From contig BDDD01001497.1 of the NCBI GenBank assembly GCA_001972305.1, positions 222,669 through 286,668 on the forward strand: 64,000 nucleotides of DNA, read 5' to 3'. A program made the position numbers and the translations under genes. The notes beneath the pieces were generated by a model. The model was not told where the DNA came from, ran no database searches, and saw nothing but the letters and a program-made list of their open reading frames with translations. The DNA is from Cephalotus follicularis. Taxonomy: Eukaryota; Streptophyta; Magnoliopsida; Oxalidales; Cephalotaceae. Positions 8,455 through 58,801 of this stretch are shown in pieces (position 1 is the stretch's first letter; every line of letters starts with the position of its first letter).

Positions 8455-8582
8455 CAGCCGACTGCCACAGGGAGGAAGTCGACTGCCTGGTTTATGAAGG
8501 GACAGCCGACTGTCACAGGGGAGCAGTCGACTGCCTGATGCGTGTTGTGGACAGTCGACTGGCCAATGCATCCAGTCGACTT
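8455..8582 (+). repeat. Palindrome array 1 (CAGTCGACTG type), E2 LTR left array
   Basis: Six copies start at 8455, 8476, 8503, 8524, 8552 and 8573 (CAGCCGACTG, AAGTCGACTG, CAGCCGACTG, CAGTCGACTG twice, CAGTCGACTT). Steps are 21, 27, 21, 28 and 21 bp, so units are grouped in pairs with a 48-49 bp pair period. Spacer sequences differ, so this is not a simple tandem duplication. Confidence 0.9.
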
Positions 8583-9628
8583 GATCGGTACAGAACAGGT
8601 GTCTGTGCATGCCTGTTAAACTGAACCAAGAGGAGATTGCATGGTGGGCAGGTGTCACACGAGACAGGAGCTGCCAGAGCATGCAAAAAGGCATCCTTGC
8701 ATGTCCTCTATTCCCCCTGCAATTTCAGACCTGCAACCTGCAAGAATCAAAAGAGAGAAAGGTGAGAAAGAGATAGAAAAGAGGAGAGAAAAGAAATGCA
8801 TGTGATGAGAGAAGTTGAGTAAATGAACTATGGCGAATTCAAGGCTTATATCAACTGTTGAGTTGTGAGATGAGTGTTAGAAACACTGAATATTTAGGAG
8901 AGTTGCTGGGATTATTGGAGCTTGCATTGGAAGGGTTAGAGAACTCAAGGAAAGAGGATTGAAGCTTTGGACTCTTGGTAAGTTTCTAAATTCGAACTTA
9001 CTGTTATTGTAATGATAGTGTAAACTGGGAGGATGTTCAATATCTTCTGCTAATGTTTAAAGTTAACAATCTTTAAATGGAATTAGAATTGATATTGAAA
9101 AGGAGTAGGAAATATGGAAATGGAGCTTAGAGAATTGTTACTAGGCCTATGATTCGATTAGGGTTGTTGTTATAATTGTCTCTAAGCATGTGTATACTGG
9201 CTAAACACATATACACTTCTGTAACATGAAACATGGTGGTAACTAGAAGCAGAAGTGAATAATAGGAATGTATTGATAATGGAAGTTTAAGACTTAAGGA
9301 ACTAGTTATAAGCTACTGTTGAAGTAGTATTGCATCTGGATAACTAGTTAATCTACTGGTTAATGACTGAACCTTAATGCATGTACTGTATAGAGTAATC
9401 TTGCGGGAATTAAAATATTGTTGGAGAAGGACTTTGGAAACCCAAAGAGATAGACCATTCCAATTGATCTTGGGATAAGCTTTTGAGGTAGGGGTAATGA
9501 TATGTTATGGAAGATATAGTATGCATATCGTGTATGTCTATTTTCTGCATGATTACATGTGTTGAAATTGATTGGAAATTGAACTTGAATTTCATGACCT
9601 GCTACTGCCTGCATTCTTTGGGCAGAAG

Positions 9629-9741
9629 CAGTCGACTATTCTTCATGACAGTCGACTACTCAACCTATCCAGTCGACTGCCAAGGCAAAGCAGTCGACTA
9701 CTCAACCAAGGCAGCCGGCTATTCTTGAAGGCAGCCGATTG
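9629..9741 (+). repeat. Palindrome array 2 (CAGTCGACTG type), E2 LTR right array
   Basis: Six copies start at 9629, 9649, 9670, 9691, 9712 and 9732, with steps of 20, 21, 21, 21 and 20 bp. Two are variants (CAGCCGGCTA, CAGCCGATTG). The array lies about 1.1 kb downstream of array 1 in the same LTR. Confidence 0.9.
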
Positions 9742-11065
9742 TTCTGGGTAAATTTACTGATATAAGGCCTGTTAAGGCCTCAATTTTGAATGTAAATGAC
9801 TTGGCTTCCATATGGATGACTAGAACAGTTAATCCTGGCCTCATATACAATTACATTCCAAAACTAAACATTGTACGCACTCCTTGTGAGAGTTGCATAT
9901 GAAAGACTTTGAATGCTATTATTGTGAATCCTTGCATTGCTACTGATTTGTGATATTGTTACTGAATATGCTACTGTCATATTAGTATAAACTATTTTGG
10001 TGTCATTTAACACCACAACCACTTGTATTTCAATAATTGAATCCAACTATGGGCTATGTACCCAAATTATGATATCAACTATCATTTTCAATGAAACCTA
10101 TTGTTTAAAAGAAATTATTGATTTTCTCCTAAGAGAGATACCATCTGTTTTGTTTCCAAATTGGAAACCACTACTGTACTGATATCGTTTTCCTCATATG
10201 AGATGTACGATAATTGACTTATTATATGTTTCTAAAGAAAACAACTTTTATATTGCATATTATTGATATATGTAATATTATTATTGAAATGCTTGAATTG
10301 TTTGTTTATGCTACTGCCGTAACTTAGTGATGGAGGATATCACTGACTACGGATGTGATTCTGGCTGCCAGGAGTTGCCCAGAGCATCACCCAAACTTAT
10401 TTGCATTGCAGATCTTATTTGTTAAACTACCCGCCAACGTCGGTAGTAAATGTTACCTGCCTGTCATCTTCGGAGCGAAGGTGATAGTTAGGTGGTGCAC
10501 AGTTGGTGCTAGGAGTTAGCGACCTGTGTCACCCAACCACTGTATGAATTGCTTGTACCCTTGTGCAGTATTCCTGCATATGTATTGTCTATGGCCACTT
10601 GGCTTGGTTGCTTATATATTGGCTCATTAAATGTTATTTTGATATAAACTATCATACATGTTGCATTCATATATTCCTTAGCATGTATTATCTTCCTACT
10701 TAGCCAAGTGAGGACAACGGCTAACCCCTACAATTTCAGATTAAGCGAAGACGTTGGAGTTGCTGCTGAAGCTTGGGGAGCTTCTTATTTTCGATTCAAG
10801 GTTGTTATTTTTGTGATGTTGTACTGCTTTGTATTGAACGGTTCATACCTCATTAATGTTGTACTTCCGCTTGTAAGGATAATTTATTTGAATTGTAACC
10901 ACACGTAGTATGGGATGCGTGCGGATGACTTATATTATATTCTGGCTTATTGAATGCTTCCGCATATTATTTTATGATTTGTTAAATGAATGCTGGAATA
11001 TATTCAATTACTGATATCACCACATATGCTTGTCTTAACGTAAACCGAAATAACGGGGTGTGACA

Positions 11066-11150
11066 AAAATTGAGCCATGTTATAAGATCGGTTATGCTTA
11101 GTCTCGCATTAGGAACCGTAACGACTCCCGCCGTTCGGGGGGGTGTTACA
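11066..11150 (+). mobile_element. Terminal 85 bp of an E1-type LTR
   Basis: It starts AAAATTGAGCCATG directly after E2 and ends GGTGTTACA. It matches 1500-1584 and the end of the copy at 13852. It marks the right flank of the E2 insertion and shows that E2 lies inside an E1-family LTR. Confidence 0.85.
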
Positions 11151-11685
11151 GTATATGTATGCTATTATCCATTGTTTGTGCCTCCATTGGTCGTTTCTCT
11201 CCTAGTAGCCGAAATTTGCAAGCATTAGAGCCTGTTTTTGTCTTCTTTGCTTCACTGAATCAGGTTTGTTCCTCTGTTATTATGGTTTAACAATTAAATT
11301 AGTTTAATGACAGACGAATTTTATTGCATGTTGGTTGCTAGCATGTTTTGTCTTAATCCCTGCCATGTATGCTTGGTTAATGTTTCTGATATTGTTAGCA
11401 AGCCTTGCAGTGTCTTGTAATGGTTATAAACAGATTGTGAAACTAGAAATTGGTATATGACAGAAATTGATCACATAGTTATGCATATAAAGAATTGGAA
11501 CTTGCTTCTCTTTAAAAGTGTGATCACCAATTGCATGAACCTTTTGAGTCAGGATGTTTACATGCAACTGTTAAGTCACATAAGACCTAGGTAAGTGTTT
11601 AAGGTTATCTGGAAAAGTGATAAAAACGATTTTGACAGAAAATTGGCATAGGTTTGTTAGATTTTGGCTGTTCTGTCGCCCAGAA

Positions 11686-11850
11686 CAGTCGACTGCCTCT
11701 TGAAACAGTCGACTGTTTTGCCTTGCACAGTCGACTGGACCCCTTCTCACAGTCGACTGGATTCATACCCAGTTTGAGTAGTCGGCTGCCTATGCCACAC
11801 AGTCGACTGCCACCTTTGAGTAGTCGACTGGATCTTGATACAGCCGACTG
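11686..11850 (+). repeat. Palindrome array 3 (CAGTCGACTG type)
   Basis: Eight copies start at 11686, 11706, 11728, 11750, 11779, 11800, 11821 and 11841, with steps of 20, 22, 22, 29, 21, 21 and 20 bp. Four are perfect CAGTCGACTG with the same internal orientation, and one is CAGTCGACTG followed by a C. Variants are TAGTCGGCTG, TAGTCGACTG and CAGCCGACTG. Confidence 0.9.
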
Positions 11851-12067
11851 GTTTTGTCCAGTGAATTTTTTGGTTTTAAGTTTTGTAATCTGTTTGATCG
11901 TTTAATGATTTGTAGATTGTTTTAAACACTATTAAATTACTGTTTGATGTTTGGAAGTGATTTTTGAATCCTTATATAAATGGTATTGTATCTTTTAGAT
12001 TTTTGTGCTTCGAGGGACTTTTAAAATTGTTGATCAATTCGTCTAAACTTTGTTGTGATCACTTAAG

Positions 12068-15350: not shown

Positions 15351-15530
15351 AGCTCTGCCTAATTGACAACCATTCTCAGCCTAAGATCCAATCTCAGTTG
15401 TTTCTGTTGAAGGTCTAACCTCCAACTCCTCCATCTCCTGTGTGGTTTCTACCTGTGGCAACTCCTTGAGTTCCACCTTACTCCCACTGTTTCCTTCAAG
15501 AAGGTATTCCTTCTCTAGGAACACAGCATT

Positions 15531-17709: not shown

Positions 17710-18555
17710 TGTCACACCCCGTTTTAAGAGAAATGACAATTAAGCAGTAAAGGCAATTAACATAAAGTACAGCTCATGCAAAACCCATAAAAATTAAACT
17801 TTTTCAAGAACATCAGTTGCGGAAGCATAACAAAACATAAGCTGTAAACTCGTAACGTACATCCCATACTGTACGCTACCCAAGTATAAGTCATCATAGT
17901 TAATCGCCCACAAAACGGAGCGTGAATCACAGTACAAGTTTAAAATCCCACCAGTAAACAACTTAGTAACGTTAGTTATTACAAGACAGGAGAGTAGTAA
18001 AACTAAGAACAACATAATCTTGCTCTTCGTCCAGGCCAATCGAACAGGTCCACTGCATCAATCTGTAAAGTAGGGGGTTAGCCTTTCTCCTCACTCGGCT
18101 AAGTCATAAAAGCAGTTCTGGATTAAAATTAAATGTATGTCATGATATGGATGCATGGATGATGCAGTACAGTAGAAAATCCGGTTTATATATATACGAA
18201 AATATATATATTTAACAGTACCGTAAAATATCAGTGGGTACATATATAAGAAAATATGTGTATGCAGGAACAGTACAGTAGTAACCAGGCCAGGGCTACA
18301 TCAACCAACACAGTAATGTCCGAGAATGACCAACAGGCAGTACAGGATGTCCACATAGGACCACAACAATAGGCAGTATGTGTAGCGCCGCCAACTCCAG
18401 GCCCCACGCTACACTCTCACTCCGGTCCCTGCTCCAGGCAACCGAGCGAGGCAACAGTACAGTGAGTTACCTAGCCATGCTCCTGGCCCCTAGGTCAACC
18501 CTACCACTAGCCGGCGCTGGCAGCCTCTACCATGCAACTAGTGGCTCAAGCACAA

Positions 18556-19161
18556 TGTCACACCCCGTCTTTCCACAACATAAAAGTGGTAAAGCAATCA
18601 ACAAATAAATCCGGCTTATGCAAAAATACCATAAAATTTAAACTTTTCTTATCAGAAAACATCTCGCGGAAGCATCAAATATAAGTCCATGTGAGGACAT
18701 GTTCTGGGCATCCCTGGCAATACACAGACATGCACACACGTTGAATCGCACCAGAAAAGGCGTTAGGTAGCCCTTAAACAATTCCCCCCCTGCATGATGT
18801 TCTGTCGACGAAGAACATGCTGTCCATTCGCACAAAAGGCGTCGACGTCTTCCCTTAAACGTCGATGTCTTTTCAAGTTGGTAAGAAGGTGTCGAGGCTT
18901 CCTTCCCGAGTCGACGTGCATGCCCATGCATTCACGTGTGCCCTGGCTCGCAAAGGAGTCGACGTCTTTCCAAAAGACGTCGATGTCTTTTTGCCAAAAC
19001 AGCGCCGTTTCAAGCTTAATCATACACACTCCCTTTCTAAGTCCATAACTAGGGTTTGTAAGCATCTTTTGAGTCCAAAACTCAACATTCTCATTAAATA
19101 AAGTTCAATGATTACATCATAAATCCAAAATATTACATCCAAGAAAATACCGGGCGTTACA
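18556..19161 (-). mobile_element. S2, 606-bp shortened LTR inside S1
   Basis: It begins TGTCACACCCCG and ends CGGGCGTTACA and is flanked by a perfect 5-bp duplication, CACAA, at 18551-18555 and 19162-19166. S1 sequence continues on both sides. It belongs to the S3/S6 family but lacks about 2 kb of the middle; only both ends and the left (U3) palindrome array remain. Confidence 0.92.
18802..18986 (-). repeat. Palindrome array 4 (GCGTCGACGC type) in S2
   Basis: GTCGAC-like cores are centred near 18806, 18843, 18863, 18893, 18912, 18960 and 18981 (steps 37, 20, 30, 19, 48, 21). The last five steps equal those of array 9 in S3 within 1 bp. Confidence 0.88.
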
Positions 19162-19580
19162 CACAAACACATAACAATTCACAGAGCAAACAGTGAATTC
19201 AAGCAGTAACAGTACAGTAAACAGGACAGTAGTGATCATTTAGATCCACAACAGGCAGTTGTTTTCCAAAATGTTTCCAAAAGTGACAACATTTGAAAAT
19301 AGGTATTTTCAGTAGAAAATACTTTTAAACAGTACAATAGTGGAAATCGTTTTCCAAAGATATTTGAAAATACGATATCAATATTCGTTTTGTACTCAAA
19401 CTAGCAGTTTCAATTCATATATGCATTTCTAAAGTAACAACACATTAGAAATCATAATCCGAGTATAATCAGTACAAATAGGCAGTAAAACAGTACATAT
19501 GCAATGCATACAAATGCTCAAGTGCATCCTAGCAGGAATCGGGATCGTTTCGCATGGTTTTAGGCAAACAGCAGTCCAAC

Positions 19581-19838
19581 CAGTCGGCTGGAATCCTCAC
19601 CAGTCGACTGTTCTGGGTCTAGCAATATCAGTAGTCGACTGGTTCCTTCTATCAGTCGACTGTCCACTAGGCAGTCGGCTATTGTTCTTCAACAGTCAAC
19701 TGTTACAGTACACCTACACAAGAACATTCCCAGATTACCATCTTCTGGGCAGTACGAAGTATGAATGGTCGACTGCTTTCCATTGGCAGTCGACTGGTCT
19801 CATTGAGTAGTCGACTGTCTTCCTTCGACAGTCGGCTG
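19581..19838 (-). repeat. Palindrome array 5 (CAGTCGACTG type) in S1, U5 side
   Basis: Ten cores are centred near 19585, 19605, 19636, 19657, 19676, 19697, 19770, 19791, 19812 and 19833 (steps 20, 31, 21, 19, 21, 73, 21, 21, 21). Perfect CAGTCGACTG occurs several times; CAGTCGGCTG and CAGTCAACTG are variants. Confidence 0.9.
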
Positions 19839-20653
19839 CTCTGCGAACTAGTGGCATGCAAATCGATCTAACTACTCCAATGAATCATGGTAAGCAGATA
19901 AATCACGTTCAGGGATAGGAATATAACCACAGGATGTAATATTATCCATATAACAACACGTTCAACACATTTCAACATGCAACCAATTCCATGTTAAGGT
20001 TCAACATGCATACATTTGATCACATTTGATTCGCAGTAACAAGCATAACCAACGGGAAACAGTAGTGACCACATCCTAAACTCAGTAGTTATAACTCATA
20101 CAACCAGGCATTTCGATTCATGAAGCATGCAGTAACTTTAACTCAAAACACCATTACAACTTCCCCTACCTTTGATTCCAAGTTAGGAATCTGTAAGTCC
20201 AACTCTTTTCGTTCCAATCAGTGACGTTCTGAGCTCCTCAGAAGCTCCAACTCCAAGCCCAGCAGCTCCAAGGACAGCTCCCACCTTGAGCTCCAAGCTT
20301 CAACAATGGACAACACTCCTCTTCCCTCTTTTCTTTGTGGTTTCTCTCTACTGTCTCTGTGATTCTCAAACTTAACAGTACCCGGATGAGAGGGAATGAG
20401 TGGCACGTTTTTATGCAGAGTCTTTCCTCCTCTTCCTCCTTCACTCCTCACATGGCACTAAATGCCACACACTCCCACTCACATGCATGCACACACACAC
20501 ACAAAGCCAATTTCTCTGCCCCATGAAGTCTTGCATGATTCACAGGTGTCTCTTCCTTACATTCTTCTGGCTGCATGAGGCACAGATGGCACCTTCTTCC
20601 AATGCCAGTTGTAACATGTGATTTCTGTCACATGCAACAAACAGAGCATGATC

Positions 20654-20804
20654 CAGTCGGCTGCCTTTCCCTGGCAGTCGGCTGTTCGCCTGGCAGTCTG
20701 TTGCCAAGTGTCATGACAGTTGGCCCGTCGACTAGTTCATCCTACCAGTCGACTGCCCCCATATGCAGTCATCTAGTCGGCTGGTCCTCCATACCAGTCG
20801 ACTG
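20654..20804 (-). repeat. Palindrome array 6 (CAGTCGACTG type) in S1, U3 side
   Basis: Cores are centred near 20658, 20679, 20698, 20729, 20750, 20778 and 20799 (steps 21, 19, 31, 21, 28, 21). It occupies the place where S2 and S3 have the GCGTCGACGC type. Confidence 0.88.
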
Positions 20805-20980
20805 CCTCCAGTATAATTATCAAGAAATCACACTTCTAAGTATATAATTGGTTAAAATCAACATAATCATAGTTTGGGAAAACATCATCAAATTCGGAAA
20901 AGTCCATCATTCTATTAATTCCACAAATAAGGTACAATTACATTGTGAAATTACAGTACATGAAAATTACGGGCGTTACA

Positions 20981-22739
20981 GGGCATTGGATTTGATAAAG
21001 CCATACTACCAATCTAGATAAGGAAATATAATCATGAGTTAGCATTTATTCCAATTTTAATATATGACAACCAGAACACTTGGTCTTTAGTGCTTATGGT
21101 TCCTCCCACTATTCTAATCGTATCCCATACCCTCATATGGAACTCGATAAGTCTAACTTCCTAGTGGGGATTGGAATCCATTGCAATCATATTATAGCCT
21201 CATCTAAGGCATGACAAACTATAATATATCCAATGGGTAGGCTTTCTTGCCAATTTGTATCTAATACAAGATCCAATCATAGTATTCGGCCTTAGATTCA
21301 ATACGGCCTCAGCTAGGGCATGACAAACCATCAAAATCTTGATAAGTCAAATACCCACAATTTTCATTGGAATGCACTAGTTTTAACACCCACACGTAGG
21401 CGTCTCCAAGTGCTAAAACATAACCACCCTTTGCGGTGCCCAACACCGACGTTGACATAATATCCCCAAGTTCTCAGCGTCAGCTAGGGCGTGAAAAACC
21501 AACAACCTAGGAACACTACTCAACGAAAATTGTGGAAGGCCACGGGGAACCACTCCATGGGTTCCTACGTTAAGACTTATTATTAAGGTGAGGGAATTTG
21601 CGGTCTCAAATTTTAATCACCGAGCCATTAATTAATTCATTGGTTGTATTAGCCAATTCAAATTAATTACGGCTTAGCATGCAAGACGTGTATCGTATGC
21701 ACCTTAGACATATTTCTAAAATATGTCAATGGATTGGCAAGGACTTTATTAGTCGTGACTTGAGGCCAAAATCACTACTAGGTCTTCCTAGGTGTTTAGA
21801 TATAAAATTTATCTATTACAAGAAATACCATGCATACATGGCCTTCAAAAATCTTGTACTCCATTTCTCCTTTCCTCCATCTCTCCTTGTAAGGTCTTAT
21901 TTTACAAAAAGAACTTTACATTTTCGAAAGAAAAATTACATTTAAAATTACAAGGAAAAATTACAAAAGAAAGGAAAAATAAATGGTGCACGCAGGCACT
22001 TTATTACAGACCTTTAAAAATAATAAATAAATAACATCCATCCACACATAGAAAACCATAAACTAGGTCAATGTCCTTTTTCGGGCCATCCATTGTGCAT
22101 AAGACTTATATTATATCCAATATAATAAAACCACAAAATAACAAACGCCATAAATAATAACTATTTATAAAATTTAATTTAAGGATTGTTAATAATGGTT
22201 AAACTCCCACTAAATCAAGCAATGATTTTGATTTTCTGAGTGCCACAATGTATAAAAACTAATTTTATTAAAAACATATTTTTTTTTTTAACTTTGGCTA
22301 AAGCGTCGACGCTTCCCATAAGGCATCGACGCTTACCTCTAAGGCGCGAAAAATACAAAAATTGAATAAGTGTCGACGCTATGCCAAGACGTCAACGCAG
22401 TAACAACTCATTGGCACAAGCGTCGACGTTTTATCCCCCTGGACAGTTTCTGCAATTCGACAACTGCAGAAAATATAGTTTGAACATTAAGCATACATAC
22501 ATCCAGTCATTATCTGACAATATGCAGCCTTAATCTACACTATGTAGGTTTCCAAAATATGTTCAAATTCCATTTTAACATAATCTCCAAGATTAATTAA
22601 CTATGAAATCCAATTTCATATAAAAATCATTAAGGCACTTTGAAAATTAGTTTAACCAAAAGCAACACATCCTCTAATTAAACCTTATAAAATAGTACAT
22701 CATTCATAGCACAAAATTCAATTAAGGATGATGTGAGTC
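20981..22739 (-). mobile_element. E3 copia untranslated leader
   Basis: This 1.76-kb stretch lies between the E3 primer site and gag and has no believable coding sequence. On the minus strand it holds three spaced copies of a TTTGTCATGCC-like module followed by AGCTGAGGC-like sequence (about 21198-21225, 21302-21330, 21478-21505). The E7 leader has related modules near 55718 and 55842. Palindrome array 7 lies near its 5' end. Small plus-strand open frames at 21679-22034 are unsupported. Confidence 0.7.
22303..22429 (-). repeat. Palindrome array 7 (AAGCGTCGACGCTT type) in E3 leader
   Basis: Cores are centred near 22307, 22327, 22347 (GGCGCG, decayed), 22374, 22393 and 22424, with steps of 20, 20, 27, 19 and 31 bp. 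This array lies about 310-440 bp downstream of a copia primer site, not in a gypsy LTR. Confidence 0.85.
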
Positions 22740-22751
22740 GCTCTGATGCCA
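22740..22751 (-). promoter_or_regulatory. Primer binding site of E3
   Basis: The plus-strand GCTCTGATGCCA is the reverse of TGGCATCAGAGC, one base off the initiator-methionine tRNA site. It lies just inside the LTR that starts at 22753. Confidence 0.85.
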
Positions 22752-24804: not shown

Positions 24805-26127
24805 TGTAATTGTCACGCCCCGGTTTCAGGTAAACACACATAAAGGTGGTAAAGGCAATTAACACAAAGATTCAGCTCATGTAAATACCATAAAATTTAA
24901 ACTTTTCAGATAAAATATCAGTTGCGGAAGCATTAAACCCATAAGCTGAAAAACACGTAACGTGCATCCCATACTGCACGCTACTCAAAGCATTTATTTC
25001 ATTGTTAAAAGCCCACAAAACGGAGCGTGATCCATATACATTAACCCAAAAGTGAAGTACAACAGATAACCGTCAGTACAGTACATCAGTAGTCCTTAAG
25101 ACAAAACCAGTTTATTACAATTCAGAAGAATATAAACCAACAACAATAACATAAAGGCTTGTTCTTCGTCCATGCTAGTCGAACACCGGTCCACTGCGTC
25201 AATCTGTAAAGTAGGGGGTTAGCCTTTGTCCTTACTCGGCTAAGTCATAAGAGTAGTTCGGGATCAACATTAAATGCATGTCATGAAATGGATGCATAAT
25301 GATGCAGTGTAGTAGAAAATCGGTTTATATATACGAAAATATATATATGTTTAACAGTACAGTAAAATATCAGTAAGGACATATATAGGAAAATATATGT
25401 ATGCAATGATAGTACAGTAGTAACCCGGCCAGCGCTACATCACAGGCACAATAGTGTCCGAATAGGACCAGTAAACAGTACAAAGTCCACAAAGGGACCA
25501 CAACAGGCAGGCAGTGTGTGTAACACCGCCAACTCCTGGACCCACGCTACACTCCCACTGTAGTCCCTTCTCCAGACAACCAAGCAAGGCAATAGTACAG
25601 TACAGTGAGTTACCCAGCCAACTCCTGGCTCCTAGGTCAACCCTGCCACTAGCCAGTGCTGGCAGTCTCCGCCATGCAACTAGTGGCTCGAGTACAAACA
25701 CAGTAAATTCACAGAGCAACAGTGAATGGTCATTGTAAACAGTGCAGTAAACAGTACAATAATGATCGTTAGATCAACAACAGGCAGTTCATTTCCAAAT
25801 ATTTTCAAAAGTGATAACATTTGAAATATGTATTTCTAATAGATAGAAAGTACTTTAAACCGTTCAGTAGTGGAAATCGCTTTCCAAAGATGTTAGAAAA
25901 TATAACAATATTCATTTTATATTTTTGCATTCAACATAGTGGTTTTCAACTCGTATATGCACTTCTAATGTGGCAATACTTAGAAAATCATAATCAATTT
26001 ATAAACAGTCGATAAACAGGCAGTAAACAGTACATATGCAATGCATACAAATGCTCGAATGCATCCTAAGAGGAATCAGGATCGTTTCATATCGTTAAAC
26101 AAGAAAACTCCGAAACAGTACAAGAAG

Positions 26128-26390
26128 GCGTCGATGTCTATTACTAGGCGTCGATGTCTTTGTCCCTCAGCGTCGACGCTCAAGTCCTTAGCGTCAGCGC
26201 TTTACACTGTTTGAAGACGTCGATGTCCATCTTTATAAGCATCGATGCTCAAGGTATGGAACCTTAAACGTCAGTGTATTGCTTAAGACGTCGACGCGTT
26301 AAGGTAGGAACCTTAGGCGTTGACGTATAATACATCAATATCCAAGGAGATAACCCCAAAGGCGTCGATGTTCTTCAAAGACATCGACGT
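26128..26390 (-). repeat. Palindrome array 8 (GCGTCGACGC type) in S3, U5 side
   Basis: Twelve cores are centred near 26132, 26152, 26174, 26195, 26221, 26243, 26272, 26292, 26321, 26336, 26366 and 26385 (steps 20, 22, 21, 26, 22, 29, 20, 29, 15, 30, 19). Many are decayed to GTCGAT, GTCAGC or GTTGAC. The steps match array 12 in S6 read backwards. Confidence 0.9.
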
Positions 26391-27023
26391 GTTTCGAGAA
26401 CCAGTCATCTTCTTGCTTACGACGTGACAAGCAGTGACCATCAAAATCCACATACATGCAAGATAACATGTAATCAAGGCAGGAAACCAACATGCAGATA
26501 CATATAACATACCCAGCATAACATGGCATTGATCCAGTGATCAAAAACATTTCAATAATCATGCAATCTATGCACCAAAATCATAGTCCAGGCATGAACA
26601 TTAATCTCAAGAATACAATTATGGCTTCCCCTACCTTTTTGTTCCAAGTTAGGAACAAGAAAGTCCACCTCTTTAAGTCCTACAACCGGCCACAGCAGCT
26701 CCAAGGATCGTCCCGTTGCTGCTAGCCCACAAGCTTCAAGTTCCAAGCTCTAAAATGCTTAACAATGGTGGAATCTCTCTCCTTGTTCGCACTCAAGTGT
26801 TTTTAGCCAAACCAATGGGGAGAAGAGGAGCATTTATCTCTCAGCCTGCATGCACAGCCAAGTGTCATGCCGTCTCTTCTCTTCTAGCCCCTGCATGCCT
26901 GGTAACATACCATCATGCTCAAAATGTAATGTCCGTGCCCCAAGGCACCTGCAAAGTGACCTTAAGTTGTCACCTTGCACGTTATTCTATCAGCAGAAGA
27001 ACGTGTCTGTCATTTGTCGCTAA

Positions 27024-27172
27024 ACGTCGACATTTTTATGCAGGCGTCGATGCTTATAGCGTTTTACCTGAAAGGCGTTGATACTATTCATAGGCGTCGA
27101 CGTGCATGCACATGCATTCATGTGCGTCTCTTTGTTTCAAAGGCGTCAATGCTTTCAAAAGGGCATCGACGC
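27024..27172 (-). repeat. Palindrome array 9 (GCGTCGACGC type) in S3, U3 side
   Basis: Cores are centred near 27028, 27048, 27079, 27098, 27146 and 27167 (steps 20, 31, 19, 48, 21), the same layout as array 4 in S2. Confidence 0.88.
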
Positions 27173-27459
27173 GTTTCTCCCAAAACAGCGTCGTTTTACT
27201 TCAAATTGCCCTTTTTAACATTTCTTTAACATTTTTTTTCTCCAAAATTAATATCATTAGAGTTTGGAAAACATCATCAAAGTTGGGAAATCCATCATTC
27301 TATTAATTTCACAATAAAAGTACATTTACATCATGAAATTACAACATATGAAAATCCCGGGCGTTACAGTAATGACCGGAAATTTTGTTGAAGTTATTGT
27401 TTATGGAAATATGGTTGTTCTAAGTATTTTATGGTGTGTTAGGCATTTTGTAGCATTGA

Positions 27460-27841
27460 AAGCCTCGACTATCTAATTTTAAAGCGTCGATGGTTAGTCT
27501 TCAGTGCATACAAAGCGTCGACTATTTTCGTACCAAAGCTACACCAAACTTATTAACTAAAGCGTCGACGGTTTGTTATAGCGTTGAGGAAAAAGTGGCG
27601 ACGCTTTTAAGTCTTATTTTAGTAACTAAAGCGTCGACGTTTTTTTTATAGTGTAAGGAGAAAGCGGAGATGCTTAAGTGTTATAACCAACGACGCTTAT
27701 TTCCTTTTTCTTCAACGTTTTAAGCCTTATATCCTTTGTTAAAAGCGCTCAGCTGGTGACGCTTAGTGTAAAAGCGGCAGCGCTTTGAGGTTAAAGCGTT
27801 GAGCCTTAGTGAGAACAATGCTTGAAAGCATCGACGCTTAT
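27460..27841 (+). repeat. Palindrome array 10 (AAGCGTCGACGCTT type) in the E4 LTR
   Basis: About 13 recognisable but degenerate units lie here, for example near 27488, 27519, 27566, 27635, 27778, 27800 and 27832. Full AGCGTCGACG cores occur at 27561 and 27630. Steps range from 14 to 47 bp, many of 19-23 or 31-36. The array ends about 230 bp before the TATA box at 28068. Confidence 0.82.
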
Positions 27842-28067
27842 CTCGTTTTTTTTTTTATCATTTAGTGAATTAATTATGTTAATTATGGACGCATGTCGAC
27901 TACCGGATGAAGAATTGAGATTTTTTACCTAACTGTTATTATTTCAAGATAAAAAGAGGACAAGTATCATTTAATCTGAGGAAGAAAATTTAACAATGTG
28001 GGAGGCGTATAACATGGACGACGTAACCAGCTGACGCACGACAGTAAGAAGCCTGTGTTAAACTGCC

Positions 28068-37411: not shown

Positions 37412-38545
37412 TGTAAGCCCCGGATCTTGTACAATTATTTTACATTAAAGATTAGTTTATTATATTGGATAATTATGATTTGGGCTTGAGAGTTTTCTTC
37501 TCTTGAGCCAAACTTTTACTGCGGAAGAAATGTAAGTTGTTGGACTGAACTTGGACATGGAAGGAGAAAAGAATGTTAGCCTTATCACTGTGAAGAAAGT
37601 TGCTGAAGTGTGGTTCTAGAGTCTTCCACTCTAATAAATACGATACTTGTAGTAAGTGGCACCACATTGTCTCATAATTTTGGTAGAGACAAAGGAAACA
37701 CCTTTGTCGACAGAGTTCAACACTCTCTTTACGCTTATTTTATCCCCTCATTCCTGGATCTGGAGGGAGACAGTGAGAAAGAAAATTTGAGAGAGAAAGC
37801 TTGGAGTGGAGCAAAGAAAGGGGTCGGTGATCTCGCAGCAGCGTATAAAGCTTAAAGGAAGGATGGAATTGAGAGTCTAGCAGTAGATTCTTCAAAATCT
37901 GCAAACGTTTCTAGCAGCAAGTTCTTCTGGATTCATAGCTAAACATCCTTGAGGTAGGTTCTACTCTTATGCCTTGAGCTGATATATGTTTATGTATATA
38001 TATCTGTTGTGATGTTCAATGTTATTGTGAATTGATAGATCGTATTGTTATAAATTAATATGTGGTGCTGCTATGAACTGATTTGATCATGATTATGGTT
38101 AGAATCGATCATTGGGGCTTCTGACTCTACTGAATCGAATGACTGATTGCCTGAAATGGACTGGGATTGTAGATGAGCTGTTTAACAGCTATAGTTCATC
38201 ATTCTGCTAAGTCTTTAGATCGTAGACATCTCTAATTAGAGTGTTCACGCTTTACCGGGGTGTACCTCAATACTAGAGACAGACCTTGAACTTGAAGGTG
38301 AGACCTTACTACTAGAAGGCAGACCTCCTACCTGAGGGAAATTGAATTGTTACATCTTGTACCAAAGAATCCCTGTGCCACATGAATGCATAGCAGACTT
38401 GTCCACGAGGCGGCAGAGAAGACCTATGCTATAAGGCTACAGAGTAGGCCTGTCCACAAGGCCGCAGAGCAGACCTGCGCCTATGTCGCAGAGAAGAGCA
38501 AACCTGCGCTAATAGCATTGAATAATAGAGTAAAGCAGTCTTTAA
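37412..38545 (+). mobile_element. E8 5' LTR, part a
   Basis: It starts TGTAAGCCCCGG and matches the E8 3' LTR from 47113 onward, then leaves that match near 38540. The 5-bp target GTCTT (37407-37411) corresponds to ATCTT at 52156-52160. It contains about two units of a 51-bp tandem repeat (38367-38515). The rest of this LTR lies reversed at 44311-45404, because the piece between was inverted. Confidence 0.85.
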
Positions 38546-44310: not shown

Positions 44311-45404
44311 TGTCACATCCCAAACCATGAGGAGGACCCCACGGTCCAACAAGTGACGTGCCGTCCATAACAATCCATTTCCATCAACCCAAAATCTGCA
44401 ATAAATTTAAAACTTTAAATTAACCAGACAATGCAAGCAGAATAATCAATATTTATATATTGCGTGGGTACCCATTCATACACAACAATGTTTCATAACA
44501 CAGCTCTGCCACAAGCCGGCGGGTCAAATATAATTGCTTTACAACATCCTTTTCATTATACACGGTAGGACGTACGAAACTGCTTGCGAAGCTCTACTCT
44601 ATGATCTAGTCCCTCGAATCACTGCATTGCATCACCTAAACCTGACTCATTCAGAGAATGGGTCAGCAACCCATGGTTGTGTAGGTACTACTATATGCAG
44701 AGCATGAGGATGCATGATATGCGAGATGCATAATGAAACAATACATATAACAATTACAATTCCATGCCCCCTTCAGCGTTCATATCATTCCAAAATCATT
44801 TCAGGGCATATATGAGCTCTCCTCGGGCTCCCTTGCTGAGGTAGCAGACCACTAAACATTTCCATAGCAATCAATATCATCTCAGGGCGCATATAAACTA
44901 TCCTCAGCCTTCCTTGTTGAGGTAGAGCAGGTTAGGCATTCTTAATGTCCAAGGTAGATATCAAAACTCTACTGGGAGACTAGGGTGACATTTATAAGTA
45001 GAGCAGAGATTATGAATATCCACCTGGTCAGACCATCCATAACACTAGTCTCTATAGGGTAGTGATCGCAATATAATCACAATCAATAACCATATTTATT
45101 TATATGTACACATAGAATATACACACATATATTCATAATCAATAACCATACACAATCAATACCCCTCACGGTCATATCGGTTGGTGACCCTCACAGTCAT
45201 CTCATTCGGTGACTTTTTCGGTCATCTCAATTGGTCGTGACCTCTGCGGTCATCTCCATGGCGGTAACCTTTTCAGTCATCTCTATGGATGGTGACCTAC
45301 ACGGTCATCTCAGTTGTGATGACCTCTAGGGTTCCTAACTATACAATCCAATACAATAAAATTTCTTACCATACAATTTCTTTGGAAAAGGTCTCTCTCT
45401 TTAA
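44311..45404 (-). mobile_element. E8 5' LTR, part b (inverted)
   Basis: On the plus strand it starts TGTCACATCCCAAACC, the reverse of the E8 LTR end, and matches the second half of the E8 3' LTR (48330-48970 and 51666-52155) in reverse. It includes the GGTCACC/GATGACC repeats (about 45160-45330). With part a it makes a 2.23-kb LTR; the 3' LTR is 2.34 kb, and two missing 51-bp units explain most of the gap. Confidence 0.85.
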
Positions 45405-47112: not shown

Positions 47113-48049
47113 TATAAGCCCCGGATCTTGTACAATTATTTTGCATTAAAGAATATTATATTATGTTGGATAATTGTGATTTGGGCTTAAGAGTTTTCTT
47201 CTCTTGGTCCAAACTTTGGCTATGGAAGAAATTTAAATTGTTGGACTGAACTTGGACATGGAAGGAGAAAAGAATGTTAGCCCGGTCACTATGTGGTTCT
47301 AGAGTCTTTCGCTTCAATAAATAGGATAGTTGTAGTAAGTTGGGACCTCATTGTCTCATAATTCCAGAAGAGACAAAGGAAACACCTTTGTCTAGAGAGT
47401 TCGACACTCTCTCTACGCTTATTTTATCTCCTCGTCCCCGGATCTAGAGGGAGACAGTGAGAGAGCAAATTTGGGAGAGAAAGCTTGGAGTGGAGCAAAG
47501 AAAGGGGTTGCTGATCTCACGGCAGTGTATAGAGCTTAAATGAAGGATCAAATTGAGAGTCTAGCAACAGATTCTTCCAAATCTGCAAACGGTTCTAGCA
47601 GCAAGTTCTTTCGGAGTCATAGTTGAACATCCTTGAGGTAGGTTCTTCTCATATGCCTTGAGCTGATAAATGTTTATGTATATATATCTACTGTGATGTT
47701 ATATGTCATTGTGAATTGACAGATCGTATTGTTATAAATTAATATGTGGTGCTGCTATGAACTGATTTGATCAGGATTATGGTTAGAATCGATCATTGGG
47801 GCTTATGACTCAATTGAATAGAATGATTGATTGCCTGAAATGGACTAGGGTTGTAGATGAGTTGTTTAACAGCTATAGTTCATCATTCTGCTAAATCTTC
47901 ATATCATAGATATCTCCAATTAGAGCGTTCACGCTTTACCAGGGCGTACCTCAGTACTAGAGGTAGACCTAGTACTTGAAGGCAAGACCTCGGTACTAAA
48001 AGGCAGACCTCGTACAAAAGGGCAATTGTATTGTTACATCTTGTACCAT

Positions 48050-48270
48050 AGAAGACCTGCGCCACAAGACTACAGAGCTGACTTGTCCATGAGGCTGTAG
48101 AGAAGACCTGCACCAAAAGACTGAAGAGCAGACTTGTCCAAGAGGCGACAGAGAAGACCTGCGCCACAAGACTGTAGAGCAGACTTGTCCATACGATGGC
48201 AGAGAAGACCTACCCTATAAGGCTGCAGAGCAGGCCTGTCCACATGGCCGCAGAGCAGACCTATGCCTAG
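48050..48270 (+). repeat. 51-bp tandem repeat, about 4.3 units
   Basis: Units opening AGAAGACCTGC begin near 48050, 48101, 48152, 48203 and 48253, an exact 51-bp period. Each carries AGAGCAGACTTGTCC-like sequence. The E8 5' LTR has about 2.3 units (38367-38515). Confidence 0.88.
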
Positions 48271-48376
48271 GTCGCAGAGAAGAGTGAACCTGTGCTAATA
48301 GCATTGAATAAGATAGTAGAGTAGACCTGTTCCAAAGAAATTGTATAGTATTTGATTTAATTGTTAGGAACCTTAC

Positions 48377-48540
48377 AGGTCACCACAACTAAGATGACCG
48401 TGTAGGTCACCATCGATAGAGATGACCAAAAAGGTCACCTCTAATAGAGATTACCTCAGAGGTCACCCCCAATTGAGATGACCGTAAAAGTCACCAAATG
48501 ATATGACTATGAGGGTCACCAACCGATATGACCATGAGGG
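48377..48540 (+). repeat. 27-28 bp dyad repeat, about six units
   Basis: AGGTCACC begins near 48377, 48404, 48432, 48460, 48487 and 48513. Each unit also contains GATGACC or a variant, so each has GGTCA and its inverse TGACC separated by about 14 bp. The inverted E8 5' LTR has the same array near 45160-45330. Confidence 0.82.
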
Positions 48541-49164
48541 CTATTGATTGTGCATGGTTATTGATTGTGAATGTATATGTGTATATTCTATGTGTACACA
48601 TATATAAATACGGTTATTGATTGTGATTGTATTGTGATCGCTACCCTATAGAGACTAGTGTTAGGAATGGTCTGACCAGGTGAATATTCACCTTCTCTGC
48701 TTTACTTATAAATGTTACCCTAGTCTGCCAGTAGAGTATTGTTATATGCCTAGGACATTAAGAATACCTAGCTTGCTCTACCTTGGTGGAGGAGGCCGAG
48801 GATAGTTTATATGCTTCCTAAGATGATATTGATTGATGTGGAAACATTTAGTGGTTGGTTGCCTCGGCAGAGGATCCCGATGAGAGCTCATGTATGCCTC
48901 GAAATGATTTTGGAATGATATGGACGCTGAAGGGGGTATGGAATTGTATTATTATGGTTATGGTATGGAATTGTAACACCCGAGATTTTCCTATGTTGTA
49001 ATTTCACAATGTAAAAGTGTTTTTATTGTGGGATTAATAAAGTGATGAATTTCCAAGGCTTTGATGATGTTTTCAAAACTCTAATAGTGTTAATTTTAGA
49101 GTAAAAATGTTAAAGAAATGTTAAAAGGGCAAATTGATGTGAAACGGCGTGTTTTGGGAAAAAC

Positions 49165-49313
49165 GCGTCGACGCCTTTCAGAACGCATCGATGCCTTTGG
49201 AACTGAGAGATGCACGTAACTGCATGCACATGCACATCCATGCAGGCGAGGACATCGATGCCCTCGCGTAAAAATGGAAAAGACGTTGACATCTTTTAAG
49301 AATACGTCGATGC
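49165..49313 (+). repeat. Palindrome array 11 (GCGTCGACGC type) in S6, U3 side
   Basis: Cores are centred near 49169 (GCGTCGACGC), 49189 (GCATCGATGC), 49256, 49287 and 49308 (steps 20, 67, 31, 21). Read backwards this equals the 20-31-19-48-21 layout of arrays 4 and 9 with one unit lost (67 = 19 + 48). Confidence 0.88.
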
Positions 49314-50085
49314 GTAACATCAAATGTCAAGCACATTACTCTGCTGACAAAATAACGTACAATGGGGCACTATCCAGGCATCTTAACATGCAGTTCATGA
49401 CGTGTTGAGCATGCATTATGGTACCCTGAACTGCTAGGACTGAAATGACAGAAGTGGGAAGGCATGTGAGAGCATGCAAAGGCCTTGGCAGCAAAGGGGA
49501 GCCACCTGGTGCGCCATGCAACCAGGTGTGAAGAAGGTATGAAGAAGGAGAGAGACTTGGCATTTAGGCAGATGAAAACAAAACTAAATCTGCATAAAAC
49601 ATCTTGTTCTTCCTGAAATGAACTGAGAGAAGAATAAGAGAAACACTGTGAGAAGACGAGATAAGAAACCAATGAGTGAAAGAGTTAGAGAGAGAGGCTA
49701 AAAACCTCCATTGTCGAACTTGTTTAGAGCTTCGAGTTTGAAGCTTATGGCTAGCATCAACGGGACGATCCTTGAAGCTGCTGAGGACGATTCTAGGACT
49801 GAAAGAGGTGGACTTTCTAGTTCCAAACTTGGAACAAAAAGGTAGGGGAAGCCATGACTGTACTCTTGAGATTAATATTCATGCATGAACTATGGTTTTG
49901 GTGTATATATTGCATGATTACTGGATTGTTGTTGCTCACTGGATCAATGCCATGTTATGCTAGATATGTAATATGTATCTGCATGTTGGTTTCCTGCCTT
50001 GATTACATGTTATCTTGCATGTATGTGGTTTGTAATGGTCACTGTTTGTCACGTCGAGAGGAAGAAGATGACTGATACACGAAAC

Positions 50086-50348
50086 ACGTCGATGCCTTTT
50101 AAGAACATCGACGCCTTTGGGTTATCTGCTTGAATACTGACGTGAAACACGTCGACGCCTACGGTTCCTGCCTTGACGCGTCGACGCCGTAAGAAATACG
50201 CTGACGTTTAAAGGTTCTAGACCTTGAACGTCGACGCGTATGAAGATGGACATCGATGTCTTCAAAGAGTGGAACACGCTGACGCTAAGGACTTGAGCGT
50301 CGACGCTGAGGGACAAAGACATCGACGCCTTTTGATAGATATCGACGC
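50086..50348 (+). repeat. Palindrome array 12 (GCGTCGACGC type) in S6, U5 side
   Basis: Eleven cores are centred near 50090, 50109, 50153, 50182, 50202, 50232, 50254, 50280, 50301, 50323 and 50343 (steps 19, 44, 29, 20, 30, 22, 26, 21, 22, 20). Confidence 0.9.
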
Positions 50349-52160
50349 CTTCTGGTACTCTTTGGGATTTTCCTTATTTAAACGATGCGAAACAATCCCG
50401 ACTCCTATTAGGGTGCATTTGAGCATTTGTATGCATTGTATATACACTTTTACTGCCTGTTTGTTTACTATTTGGAAATCGTTTAAGATTTCTAAAGTTA
50501 TGATATTTAGAAATGTATATGTGAACTCGGAATACGCTATTTTGAGTATGAAAATATATATTGGTTAATAACGTAATTTCGAACGAACTGGAAAACGATT
50601 TCCACTACTGAATTGTTAAAGTATTTTCTATCTATTAGAAATGCATATTTCAAATGTTATCACTTTCAAAAATATTTGAAAATGAACTGCCTGTTGTCGA
50701 TCTAAACGATCACTACTGTACTGTTTACTACACTGTTTACTGTTTTGATTCACTGTTTGCTCTGTGAAATTACTGTGTTTGTGCTTGAGCCACTAGTTGC
50801 ATGGCGGAGACTGCCAACGCCGGCTAGTGGTAGGGTTGACCTAGGAGCTAGGAGTTGGCTGGGTAACTCACTGTACTGTACTGTTGTCTCGCTTGGTTGC
50901 CTGGAGTAGGGACCGAAGTGAGAGTGAATGTGGGGCCAGGAGTTGGCGGCGTTACACATACTGCCTGCCTGTTGTGGTCCTTTGTGGACTTACTGTACTG
51001 CCTGTTGGTCCTTCTCGGACATTACTGTGCCTGTGATGTAGCTCTGGCCAGGTTACTACTGTACTGTTGTTGCATACATATATTTTCATATATATGTCCT
51101 TACTCATATTTTACTGTACTGTTAAAATATATATGTTTTTCGTATATATATATAAATCATTACTGCATCATCTGTGCATACATTACATGTCATGCATGCA
51201 ATGTTGATCCCAAGCGACCTATATGACTTAGCTGAGTGAGGACAAAGGCTAACCCCCTACTTTACAGATTGATGCAGTGGACCGGTTGGCCTAGCTTGGA
51301 TGAAGACCAAGCCCTTATGTTGTTGTTGGTTTTAATTCTCCTGTTTTGTAATAAGCTGGTTTTGTCTTAAGGATACTGAAGTACTGTACTAATGTTTATC
51401 TGTTGTACCGTACCTTTGGCTTTGTTTAACAATGGGTTGTATTAATTGTTTTATGGATCACGCTCCGTTTTGTTAACAACGACAGATTTGGTTTGAGTAG
51501 CGTGCAGTATGGGATGCACGTTACGTGCTTTCAGCTTATGTGTTTAATGCTTCCGCAACTGATATTGTTTAAAAGTTTAAATTTTATGGTTTAGCATGAG
51601 CTGAATCTTATATGTTAATTGCCTTTACTGCTTTAATGTTGTCTTACTGAAACCGGGGCGTGACAGGAATTGTCATGGTTATATGTATTGTTGCATTATG
51701 CATCTCGCATGTCATGCATCCTCGTGCTTTGTATATAGAAGCACCTACACAACCATGGGTTGTTGACCCATTCTCTGAATGGGTCAGGTTCAGGTGATGC
51801 AGCGCAGTGATTCGAGGGACTAGATCGCAGAGTAGAGCTTCTTCAGCAAGCAGTTCCATACAACTTACCTTGTATAATGAAATGGATGTTGTAAAGCAAT
51901 TATATTTGACCTGTCGGCTTATTGTAGATGTGTGTTATGAAACATTGTCGTATATGAATGGGTACCCACGCGAAACATTGTAGTATATGAATGGGTACCC
52001 ACGCGATATATATATATTGATTATTCTGCTTTCATTTTCTGGTTAATTTAAAGTTTTAAATTTCTTGCATATTTTGGGTTGATGGAAATGGCTTGTTATG
52101 GATGGCACGTCAGGTATCGGACCGTGGCGTCCTCCTCGTGGTTCAAGGCATGACAATCTT

Positions 52161-53961: not shown

Positions 53962-53963
53962 AG

Positions 53964-53975
53964 TGGTATCAGAGC
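53964..53975 (+). promoter_or_regulatory. Primer binding site of E7
   Basis: TGGTATCAGAGC lies 2 bp after the LTR end, a perfect initiator-methionine tRNA type site. Confidence 0.9.
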
Positions 53976-56107: not shown

Positions 56108-56940
56108 CATTTTGGATTTGTAGCGCAACCTACCCCTAGTACTCACGAGCATGAAACTAGCTCATGTGATGATTGATACTACCCCAGTTTTGGGAGTGTA
56201 CCCAACCGAAGAGCATAAGGCCAATGTGGCCAAATGGTTTGACAAGGATGAGCAAGCTCATTGCTTAGAGATTGCGGGTATGGTCCCGGAACTGCAAAGA
56301 CAGTACGAGAATCTTGATACCTTGGGCCCCATACTTCTTAGGCTTAAGGAGTCATATGGTGCCAGGTTGAGGACCAAGAGGTTTAACTTGTCCCGTCAGC
56401 TCTTCTGGTTGAAAATGCCTGAGGGGGCCATAAGTCCATGCTCATGGGCTGAAGATGATTGATCTCATTGAGCAACTAGCTCAACTAGATCCAATCATGG
56501 ATGATGGTTACTACATTGACCTTATGCTAGCATCCCTCCCTCGGACATTCTCCCAATTCATCACAAATTTTCACATGAACAAGGTGGAGTGCTCTCTACC
56601 TGAAATTGTGGAAATGCTTCGTACAGCCGAAGCAGACATGGACCATGGAAAGTCCAAGTCACATATGATGATGCTTCCTTCTTCTTCCTTCTGGATAGCC
56701 CCTAAAAAGGGTGGATCTAGTGGATCCAAGTCCAAGGGAAAGGGCAAGGCGCCCATGAAAAAGAAAGGGAAGAAAGGGAAGAAACCACTTCCAGTGGTGG
56801 GGGATGCCTTCAAGAGTAGGATCCGATAGCTTTCGGATGATAAGGCTTGCTTTTACTGTTGAAAGAAAGGCCATTGGAGATCATAGTGCAGTGAGTTTCA
56901 AAACTCCACAGCAGGAAATGCCTCGGGGTCAGGTATTTTT
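56108..56940 (+). pseudogene. gag: E7 copia gag
   Basis: It starts in the signature ILETNKLDGPN near 56080, has a TAG near 56119, then an open stretch to 56462 (FDKDEQAHCLEIAGM, LRLKESYGARL). A frame change leads to 56455-56829 (FHMNKVECSLPEIVEML and a Lys/Gly-rich linker). The single zinc knuckle near 56846-56890 keeps its C-C-H-C residues but has TGA and TAG inside it. The protein is closely related to E3 gag. Confidence 0.87.
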
Positions 56941-58317
56941 ATGATTGAATCTTTTTTAGCTTATAATGTTAGTTCAACTTGGGTAGTTGACTCAGGTTAT
57001 GGGACTAACATTTGTAACTCTTTGCAGAGGCTAAGAGGGACTAAACAGCTAGAAGCTGAAGATGCTTTGGACTTGCGCCTAGGTGATGGTTCGAGGATCC
57101 ACACTTCTTTTGTTGCTATTTTTTAGTTGTCTATTACTTCTGGCCATGTACTAAAACTTGATCCACGCTATTTTGTAAAGAACCTTGTATGAAATGTAAT
57201 TTATGTTTCTTATTTGTATAAGATGGGCTGGGAGCTCACTTTTTCTACCAACTCTTGTAGTCTTATACATAACAATGTTCTTGTTTGTGCAGGGCACTTA
57301 GACAATGGCATATATGTTTTAGACACTAAACAACAAATGGCCAGGAAAATTCAAACAGGAACCACTAATAAATGACAAAGAGAAAATGATGATGTAAACC
57401 CTTCTTACATATGGCATTGTAGATTAGGTCATCCTAGCGAGGCTAGAGTCACACGATTGGTTAGGGATGGTCTTTTGGACATCAAGGACATGGAGTCCTT
57501 TCCAACTTGTGAGCCATGTTTGATTGGCAAGATGACCAAATCTCCCTTCTTTGGGGAAGGAGAAAGGGCAGTGCACATACTGGGACTTGTCCACACTGAC
57601 GTCTACGAACCTATGTCAGTCAATGCTAAGGGAGGTTTTCCCTACTTCATTACATTCACCGATGATTTATCACGGTTTGGGTACACGTTTCTAATGAAAC
57701 ACAAATCTGAGTCCTTTAAGAGGTTCAAGGAATTCATGTAAGAAGTAGAGAAACAAATAAGGAAGCCCATTAAAATACTTTGGTTGGACCGAGGGGGCGA
57801 ATGCCTATCTGCTGAATTCTAGGGTTATCTGAGAGATAACAAAATTCTCTCTTAATTGACACCTTCAGGTACACCATAGCATAATAGTGTGTCCGAACGG
57901 AAGAATCAGACCTTGATGAATATGGTCCAGTCCATGATGTCTTTTACTGATGTTCCAATATCTTTATGGGGTTATGCGCTACAAGCGGCAGCGTACATCC
58001 TAACCAGGATTCCTTCGAAATATGTCCCCTCCATACCTTACGAGGTATATAAAGGGAGGACACCCAGCCTAAACCATTTGAGGGTTTGGGGCTGTCCAGC
58101 TTATGTTAGAAGGCAGGAACCTTCTAAGCTGGAGGCACGAGCGAATCGCTGCCGGTTTGTGGGGTATCCTAAGGAAACAAGAGGATACTATTTTTACCTT
58201 CCCAGTGAACAAAAAGTGTTTGTTTCGTGAACTGATACTTTCTTGGAAATGGAATACCTGCTTGCAGGAAGCAGTGCAAGTAACATGGAACTGAGAGAGT
58301 TACCACCAGGTGAAAGA
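56941..58317 (+). pseudogene. pol: E7 copia protease and integrase
   Basis: Protease has WVVDSGYGTNIC (D-S-G, about 56985). The pre-integrase domain WHCRLGHPSEARV (about 57413) is followed by integrase with D in VHTDVYEPM, D in LWLDRGGE (about 57787) and E in VSERKNQT (about 57896), ending PSEQKVFVS at 58227. Stops occur near 57124, 57190, 57374, 57739, 57821, 57854 and 57878. S7 interrupts the integrase-RT linker at 58317. Confidence 0.88.
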
Positions 58318-58513
58318 TGTTCGGCATAAAAATGTGTTGTTTTTAATGATATAATTGTTATATTTTTATGCTTGGAACATATTACTTTGGTTGTGTTTAA
58401 CTAACTTTCAGGTAAGATGCCAAAAATATAAAATTGCGGAAACATGAGTCAAATTGGCTCAAATTGAGAGCAAGGACATCAAAGATTGAAAAATTCTACA
58501 GAAACAGAGTGAA

Positions 58514-58801
58514 GCGTCGACGCCTTGCTTGTAAGCGTCGACGCTTAACCAAAAAGCGCCAACAGTTAAGGTCAAAGCGTCGAAGCTTTAGTATAGAAAG
58601 TTAAAAATCAAATTACACCCTTTAAGCGTCAATGTTCTCATTATAGCGTCGACGCTTAGCTTCAAAGCACTGACTGTTTCAGAGAAAGCGTCGACGCTTA
58701 AAACTGTAGTTCAATTATTCAAGTAGACGCCAAACATTAAAGGAAGCGCATCTCGGCACAACACACCAAAGCATCGAAGCCCAAGACTTAAGCGTCGACG
58801 C
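58514..58801 (+). repeat. Palindrome array 13 (AAGCGTCGACGCTT type) in S7
   Basis: Cores are centred near 58518, 58539, 58560, 58581, 58630, 58650, 58671, 58692, 58775 and 58796 (steps 21, 21, 21, 49, 20, 21, 21, 83, 21). Perfect AGCGTCGACGCT units lie at 58539, 58650, 58692 and 58796. Confidence 0.92.

Follow-up and report, generated by a model that had tools for sequence, protein, structure and literature searches.

The window analysed here is a 64-kb stretch of the Cephalotus follicularis genome (assembly GCA_001972305.1, contig BDDD01001497.1, forward-strand positions 222,669 to 286,668), and all results refer to this one window unless another data set is named. Plant long terminal repeat (LTR) retrotransposons are nested within one another in this DNA, which contains 13 arrays of short palindromes centred on GTCGAC (Table 1). 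These arrays are distributed over the 3′ LTR of element E2, an E1-type LTR region, three LTRs designated F1, F2 and F3, the LTR of E4, the solo LTR X58 and the leader of a minus-strand copia element (X22). The numbers of units per element were 11 in E2, 8 in E1, 16 in F1 (21 when the LTR nested within it is included), 15 in F2, 13 in F3, 12 in E4, 10 in X58 and 5 in X22. The array at 58.5 kb, which a preliminary description of this DNA had assigned to the leader of the copia element E3, in fact sits in a solo LTR nested in the copia pol region. The ends and the target site duplication (TSD) of this LTR were read by eye, and automatic searching detected no exact TSD for X58.

E2 and E4 are Ty3/gypsy elements. 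In E2, the Retrotrans_gag and Ty3_capsid domains at 3630–4385 and the RVP_2, RVT_1 and RT_RNaseH domains at 4662–6959 identify the element as Ty3/gypsy, and an integrase zinc-binding domain is also present. Among the best 120 of 8000 candidates scored, the reverse transcriptase frame of E2 (4662–6959) matched plant retrotransposon proteins with a best identity of 72%, the named matches being nearly all from flowering plants, with one from an alga. Chromodomain matches in E2 (21.1 bits) and E4 (23.1 bits) were both below the gathering score of 25.1. Searches with Rfam (gathering thresholds) and a tRNA scan gave no matches. The F2 insertion (24806–27374) adjoins the TGTAAT start of the E4 LTR, and its TSD, GTAAT, forms part of that LTR end.

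Table 1. GTCGAC-centred arrays and the elements carrying them, in window coordinates (PBS, primer-binding site)
Feature	Position	Strand	Description
E2a	8455..8583	+	type A (CAGTCGACTG), 6 units, gaps 21, 27, 21, 28, 21
E2b	9629..9741	+	type A, 5 units at threshold, gaps 20, 21, 21, 41
E1 array	11686..11851	+	type A, 8 units, in E1-type LTR region; TATATAAA at ~11973, 122 bp downstream
F1n	18790..19000	-	type B variant, 5 units at threshold, within nested LTR of F1
F1b	19581..19840	-	type A, 10 units
F1a	20654..20806	-	type A, 6 units
X22	22302..22431	.	type B, 5 units, leader of minus-strand copia element
F2b	26105..26400	-	type B, 9 units at threshold; 12 core variants by eye
F2a	27005..27185	-	type B, 6 units
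X27, in E4 LTR	27450..27850	+	type B, 12 units; TATAAATA at ~28068, 228 bp downstream
F3a	49140..49330	+	type B, 3 units at threshold
F3b	50070..50360	+	type B, 10 units
X58 array	58513..58803	+	type B, 10 units; TATAAAAAG at ~58897, 94 bp downstream
E2 5′ LTR	end at 3551		followed by PBS TGGTATCAGAGC
E2 3′ LTR, Ty3/gypsy	8289..11065	+	ends TGTAATAACCG...GGGGTGTGACA
F1, F-family LTR	17710..20980	-	short F-like LTR nested inside at 18556–19161
F2 solo LTR	24811..27368	-	TSD GTAAT; inserted just inside E4 LTR start
F3 solo LTR	48972..51665	+	TSD ATTCC
X58 solo LTR	58319..59694	+	TGTTCG...CGAACA; imperfect TSD AAAGA/AAAGC; nested in copia E3 pol region
Copia element carrying X22 in its leader	PBS at 22750	-	

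The exact hexamer GTCGAC occurs 52 times in the window. In 30 order-1 Markov shuffles it averaged 5.6 occurrences and never exceeded 10, and clusters of at least three copies within 150 bp, of which the window has 10, were absent from all 30. The existence of the palindrome arrays, as previously claimed, was thus confirmed. Among 604 strand-collapsed CpG-containing 6-mers, GTCGAC ranked top for clusters and ranks 2–9 were fragments of the same motif; likewise, the eight most over-represented 8-mers (at least 14 occurrences, both strands together) are all parts of it. Perfect palindromes of at least 10 bp are centred on GTCGAC in 23 cases, and the next commonest core accounts for four. LTRs and the one copia leader contain 48 of the 52 exact copies; together they cover 17.6 kb, given our own choice of the leader limits and of where the E1-type LTR begins. 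The remaining four (at 15015, 29610, 37706 and 39038) are all singletons. As a check on the earlier statement that certain LTRs of the region lack the arrays, no GTCGAC array beyond the 13 listed was found in the window. In scans outside the window with the type A motif (see below), microbial genome contigs yielded 13 stretches with two palindromes 8–13 bp apart and viral contigs, scanned for type A only, yielded none.

The units are of two dyad flavours, type A (CAGTCGACTG) and type B (AAGCGTCGACGCTT), with arms reading CAG..CTG or GCG..CGC. With up to two mismatches to the type A consensus and up to five to the type B consensus, applied within the array stretches only, 95 units were counted: 5 arrays hold 35 units of type A, and 8 arrays hold 60 of type B; the earlier figure of 13 arrays is therefore retained, but that of about 110 units is not. 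These thresholds pass over two exact cores (18804 and 18910) as well as some of the weaker units, and they were set, as were the array edges, after inspection of the data. The two types differ in CpG content, with observed/expected ratios of 1.33–1.72 in the 8 type B arrays and 0.59–0.71 in the 5 type A arrays, compared with 0.60 in six LTRs outside the arrays.

Pairwise identity within arrays, profiled over 81 hand-listed units from 11 arrays (F3 excluded), is raised at offsets −5 to +10 of the core, i.e. over about 16 bp lying roughly symmetrically round the dyad. The core and adjacent positions are mostly 0.6–0.9 identical, a level that is inflated at the core because the units were picked by it, the flanks not having been picked to the same degree; beyond +11, identity is 0.25–0.33 against 0.29 expected from composition. 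The gaps between units (n = 73, with gaps down to 12 bp permitted and F3b excluded as a homologue of F2b) are concentrated at 19–23 bp (45 gaps), about two helical turns, with 13 more at 27–33 bp and none at 12–18 or 24–26 bp, and many of the longer gaps are sums of shorter gap classes. A list of F2b units made by eye, including weaker ones, contains one gap of 15 bp and one of 26 bp.

Some stretches show tandem repetition in addition. E2a contains a duplicated unit of about 49 bp, and Tandem Repeats Finder (TRF) reported repeats of 19–21 bp in E2b (9628–9721) and in parts of F1b (19768–19840), F1a (20654–20705) and X22 (22298–22345). Spacer identity was 0.362 within and 0.292 between type A arrays, and 0.412 and 0.380, respectively, for type B. 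The view that only the palindromes and not the spacers repeat holds overall, the spacers being near chance beyond +11, but fails for the E2a duplication and the TRF stretches. A protein-coding origin of the arrays was rejected because gaps of 20, 22, 28 and 29 bp break the reading frame; for the frame of 73 amino acids running through the E1 array, no candidate with three shared 5-residue words was found, which is weak evidence.

The array-bearing LTRs had been regarded as unrelated families. In a plus-strand blastn comparison (E 1e-3), this remained valid for E1, E4, X58 and X22, whose matches to other LTRs cover arrays only (E1–F1, E4–X58 and X58–X22), apart from one 37-bp match between F3 and E4; many pairs involving these four showed no match whatever. 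In contrast, F1, F2 and F3 form a single LTR family that is distantly related to E2, with which they have similar LTR ends and, close to the 3′ end (10698–10742 in E2), a 45-bp block in common. A 58-bp match of E2b to F1b, at 84% identity, covers the spacers too. In the F LTRs, one array is located ~170–370 bp and the second ~1.0–1.4 kb from the LTR start, and the layout of E2 is the same (166–294 and 1340–1452 bp). At these same two positions the arms have been switched, both main arrays of F1 being type A, as in E2, and those of F2 and F3 type B. A site-by-site replacement of A by B units between F1b and F2b was considered and rejected, since the best register aligned five units, no better than shuffled gap orders (best of 4 units in 350, 5 in 141 and 6 in 9 of 500 shuffles). 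When inspected by eye, the 45-bp block of E2 (10698–10742) and F (51226–51270) resembles a 3′ splice site (TTTCAG / TTTACAG), and donor-like GTAAGT / GTAGGG sequences lie upstream of it; these features suggest that the LTRs of E2 and F may contain an intron that includes array b.

Comparison of F2 and F3 indicated that the centres of the units in array b are retained. The central TCGA was kept at 9 of 10 sites in array b, against none of 8 outside the arrays (p = 0.0004). For CpG dinucleotides, 24 of 34 were kept in array b, compared with 15 of 48 within the 3′ domain (p = 0.0007), or 20 of 59 outside the arrays when the middle region is included. The units also appear to be polar, because the GAC half (in the sense direction) is the only intact core half in 30 of the 90 oriented units (X22 excluded) and the GTC half in 9 (p = 0.001; 25 versus 7 without F3). 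RYCGAC is present in the sense direction in 61 of the 90, including 42 with the palindrome GTCGAC itself, and the mirror GTCGRY in 48. Among the 12 deviating type A units, nine carry GCCGAC and one GTCGGC.

On this evidence, the arrays are probably multimerised transcription-factor binding sites of LTR promoters, a reading to which we assign a probability of roughly 0.6. It is favoured in that the footprint is symmetric and the units mostly two turns apart, that the cores are retained in array b and that in three LTRs the array stands ahead of a TATA motif. Each unit is a dyad of about 16 bp centred on GTCGAC, to which a host protein would bind. Because most units are two helical turns apart, neighbouring bound proteins would be aligned on one face of the DNA, and cooperative binding is possible. 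In E1, E4 and X58, where the array lies just 5′ of a TATA motif (Table 1), it may serve as an upstream activating array; in E2 and the F LTRs, a first array lies close to the LTR start and another about 1 kb deeper. The earlier proposal that a symmetrical, repeated site points to a DNA-binding protein survives in this form, a multimerised dyad site being the best fit, with the reservation that the symmetry is imperfect, as the unequal counts of intact core halves indicate.

Several observations weigh against this reading. The nearest TATAWAW after array a is 564 bp away in F3 and more than 1 kb away in E2, F1 and F2, and TATA motifs are common in AT-rich DNA, the array–TATA distances having been taken without a chance control. 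The sense direction of X58 was itself assigned from its TATA motif. X22 is located in a leader and not in the U3 region, although a TATA motif follows 133 bp downstream. Array a is not conserved between F2 and F3 (67% identity; 2 of 6 TCGA sites and 6 of 29 CpG sites kept), and the identity of sites and spacers between F2b and F3b (0.896 versus 0.837) did not differ significantly (p = 0.16). The p-value for polarity, like those given for core retention, is optimistic, because the units are not independent of each other, some being tandem duplicates and F3 being a repeat of F2. Compensatory changes in the arms of type B units appeared significant when shuffled across arrays (p 0.0005–0.024; type A, 0.73–0.86) but were dropped as evidence because shuffles within arrays gave no significant covariation (p 0.095–0.66).

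Replication slippage could also produce tandem repeats of about 21 bp, and the arrays would then be degenerate minisatellites with a functionless palindrome. The TRF repeats in four arrays, the 49-bp repeat of E2a, the slightly higher spacer identity within than between arrays and the inclusion of spacers in the E2b–F1b match are all expected under slippage. It nevertheless seems unlikely, since the spacers beyond +11 are near chance while the core and adjacent positions are well conserved, the footprint is symmetric, and LTRs that are otherwise dissimilar have this core in common. Action at the RNA level, with array transcripts folding into hairpins that feed small RNAs and silencing or mediate RNA dimerisation, is likewise judged improbable. 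Whichever strand was folded, each of the 13 arrays did better than its dinucleotide shuffles (z −2.3 to −7.3, with 60 shuffles apiece), compared with z values of 0.3 to −2.5 in four control stretches, and the palindromes of maize Sirevirus LTRs and an epigenetic response are reportedly the topic of one paper. However, A.C mismatches on the sense strand outnumber G.U wobbles in type A (41 versus 23, p = 0.03) and type B (54 versus 34, p = 0.04; 40 versus 25, p = 0.08 without F3), which argues against the RNA model because it is opposite to conservation of RNA pairs. Furthermore, the more negative z value was found on the antisense strand in nine arrays and on the sense strand in four (the minus strand being sense for X22), compensatory change within arrays was not significant, and an array 5′ of a TATA box would be outside the transcript of that promoter.

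The arrays might instead be targets of a sequence-specific anti-silencing or activator protein similar to the VANC proteins of VANDAL transposons, with motif and protein diversifying jointly. This would account for the F LTR arrays that occupy the same two places with different arms, and VANC targets are tandem short motifs that differ between related transposable elements (PMC5735166). A second LTR segment of the window also carries a different dyad array (GGTCACC, period 25–28 bp). We regard such a system as very unlikely here: VANDALs are DNA transposons, and the scans of the LTR elements covered the gag/pol frames.

As for the protein that would bind the multimerised sites, a CBF/DREB-type AP2/ERF protein is a tentative and rather doubtful candidate, proposed from the motif alone. 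Read in the sense direction, many deviating units keep RYCGAC as ATCGAC or GCCGAC, the latter being a core of the C-repeat/dehydration-responsive element (CRT/DRE). A broader scheme, which we consider improbable, is that GTCGAC may be the invariant centre of a recognition system extending across several LTR superfamilies, while the arms would encode specificity and track diverging host-factor paralogues or a transposon-encoded anti-silencing protein. This idea arises because related LTRs keep the two array positions yet swap flavour.

Other repeats were observed in the window. Inverted copies of an LTR segment at 45150–45340 and 48330–48550 carry GGTCACC / GATGACC dyads with a period of mostly 25–28 bp and variable spacers; because this other LTR segment carries a GGTCACC array, family-specific dyad arrays may be common here. 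A repeated segment (37414–38532 and 47115–48318) contains tandem arrays of 25–51 bp of the AGAAGACCTG / AGCAGACTTGTCC type at 38388–38477 and 48050–48262, and a 34-bp tandem repeat containing ATGACCGACCGAAT (~8.8 copies by TRF) is located at 62650–62947.

Repeated regulatory motifs are established features of plant LTR promoters, as in the BII boxes of Tnt1 and the heat-shock elements of ONSEN, where the motifs are others. The preliminary description had not recognised the GTCGAC motif from any described LTR, but a class of palindromic LTR motifs, the RM boxes of Sireviruses (Ty1/copia), was published in 2010, including a GTCGAC-centred motif, CGGTCGACCG, from Vitis (Bousios et al. 2010, PMC2829016). 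As described there, RM boxes occur in at least eight copies with divergent flanks, mostly in the upper LTR half, upstream of the TATA box and in CpG islands, and are nearly identical in elements of low homology; they are held to be Sirevirus-specific and absent from classic Ty1/copia, with a CGG-CCG core except in Tnd-1 (PMC2829016). The present arrays are similarly palindromic, repeated and dyad-symmetric with divergent flanks. They differ in that the hosts E2 and E4 are Ty3/gypsy and one array is in a copia leader, that the CGG-CCG signature is absent from the consensus CAGTCGACTG and AAGCGTCGACGCTT, and that the type A arrays are not CpG-rich. On this comparison, the arrays appear to act like RM boxes but depart from them in two defining properties, the core signature and the host element; the Ty3/gypsy hosts and the arm switch are new relative to RM boxes. 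Literature word searches combining GTCGAC with retrotransposons returned no paper on an LTR motif, judged by title and the start of the abstract. Such hexamer searches miss cases, because the Vitis motif (PMC2829016) contains GTCGAC yet surfaced otherwise, and we do not claim that the motif is unpublished.

VANC proteins target YAGTATTAY and AGTTGTCC in VANDAL elements (PMC5735166, PMC10398659). The arrays resemble these targets as short motifs arrayed in non-coding DNA of transposable elements and differing between related elements; unlike them, VANDAL motifs are non-palindromic, belong to a DNA transposon and have a known element-encoded binder. The CRT core RCCGAC and the CBFHV motif RYCGAC are listed cis-elements (PMC4482647), and the Rider LTR contains several dehydration-responsive elements and a CBF-binding site, the available part of that report mentioning no dyad array and describing Rider as unresponsive to cold (PMC6762207). 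The sense-directed RYCGAC of most oriented units is like CRT/DRE, which, unlike the present units, is not a dyad. Within a single genome region, Ty3/gypsy LTRs and one copia leader have an RM-like architecture with a common GTCGAC core. Should this core be read by one host factor, a single signal would reach several retrotransposon families. The change of arms at fixed LTR positions may offer a way into the co-evolution of transposons and their regulators.

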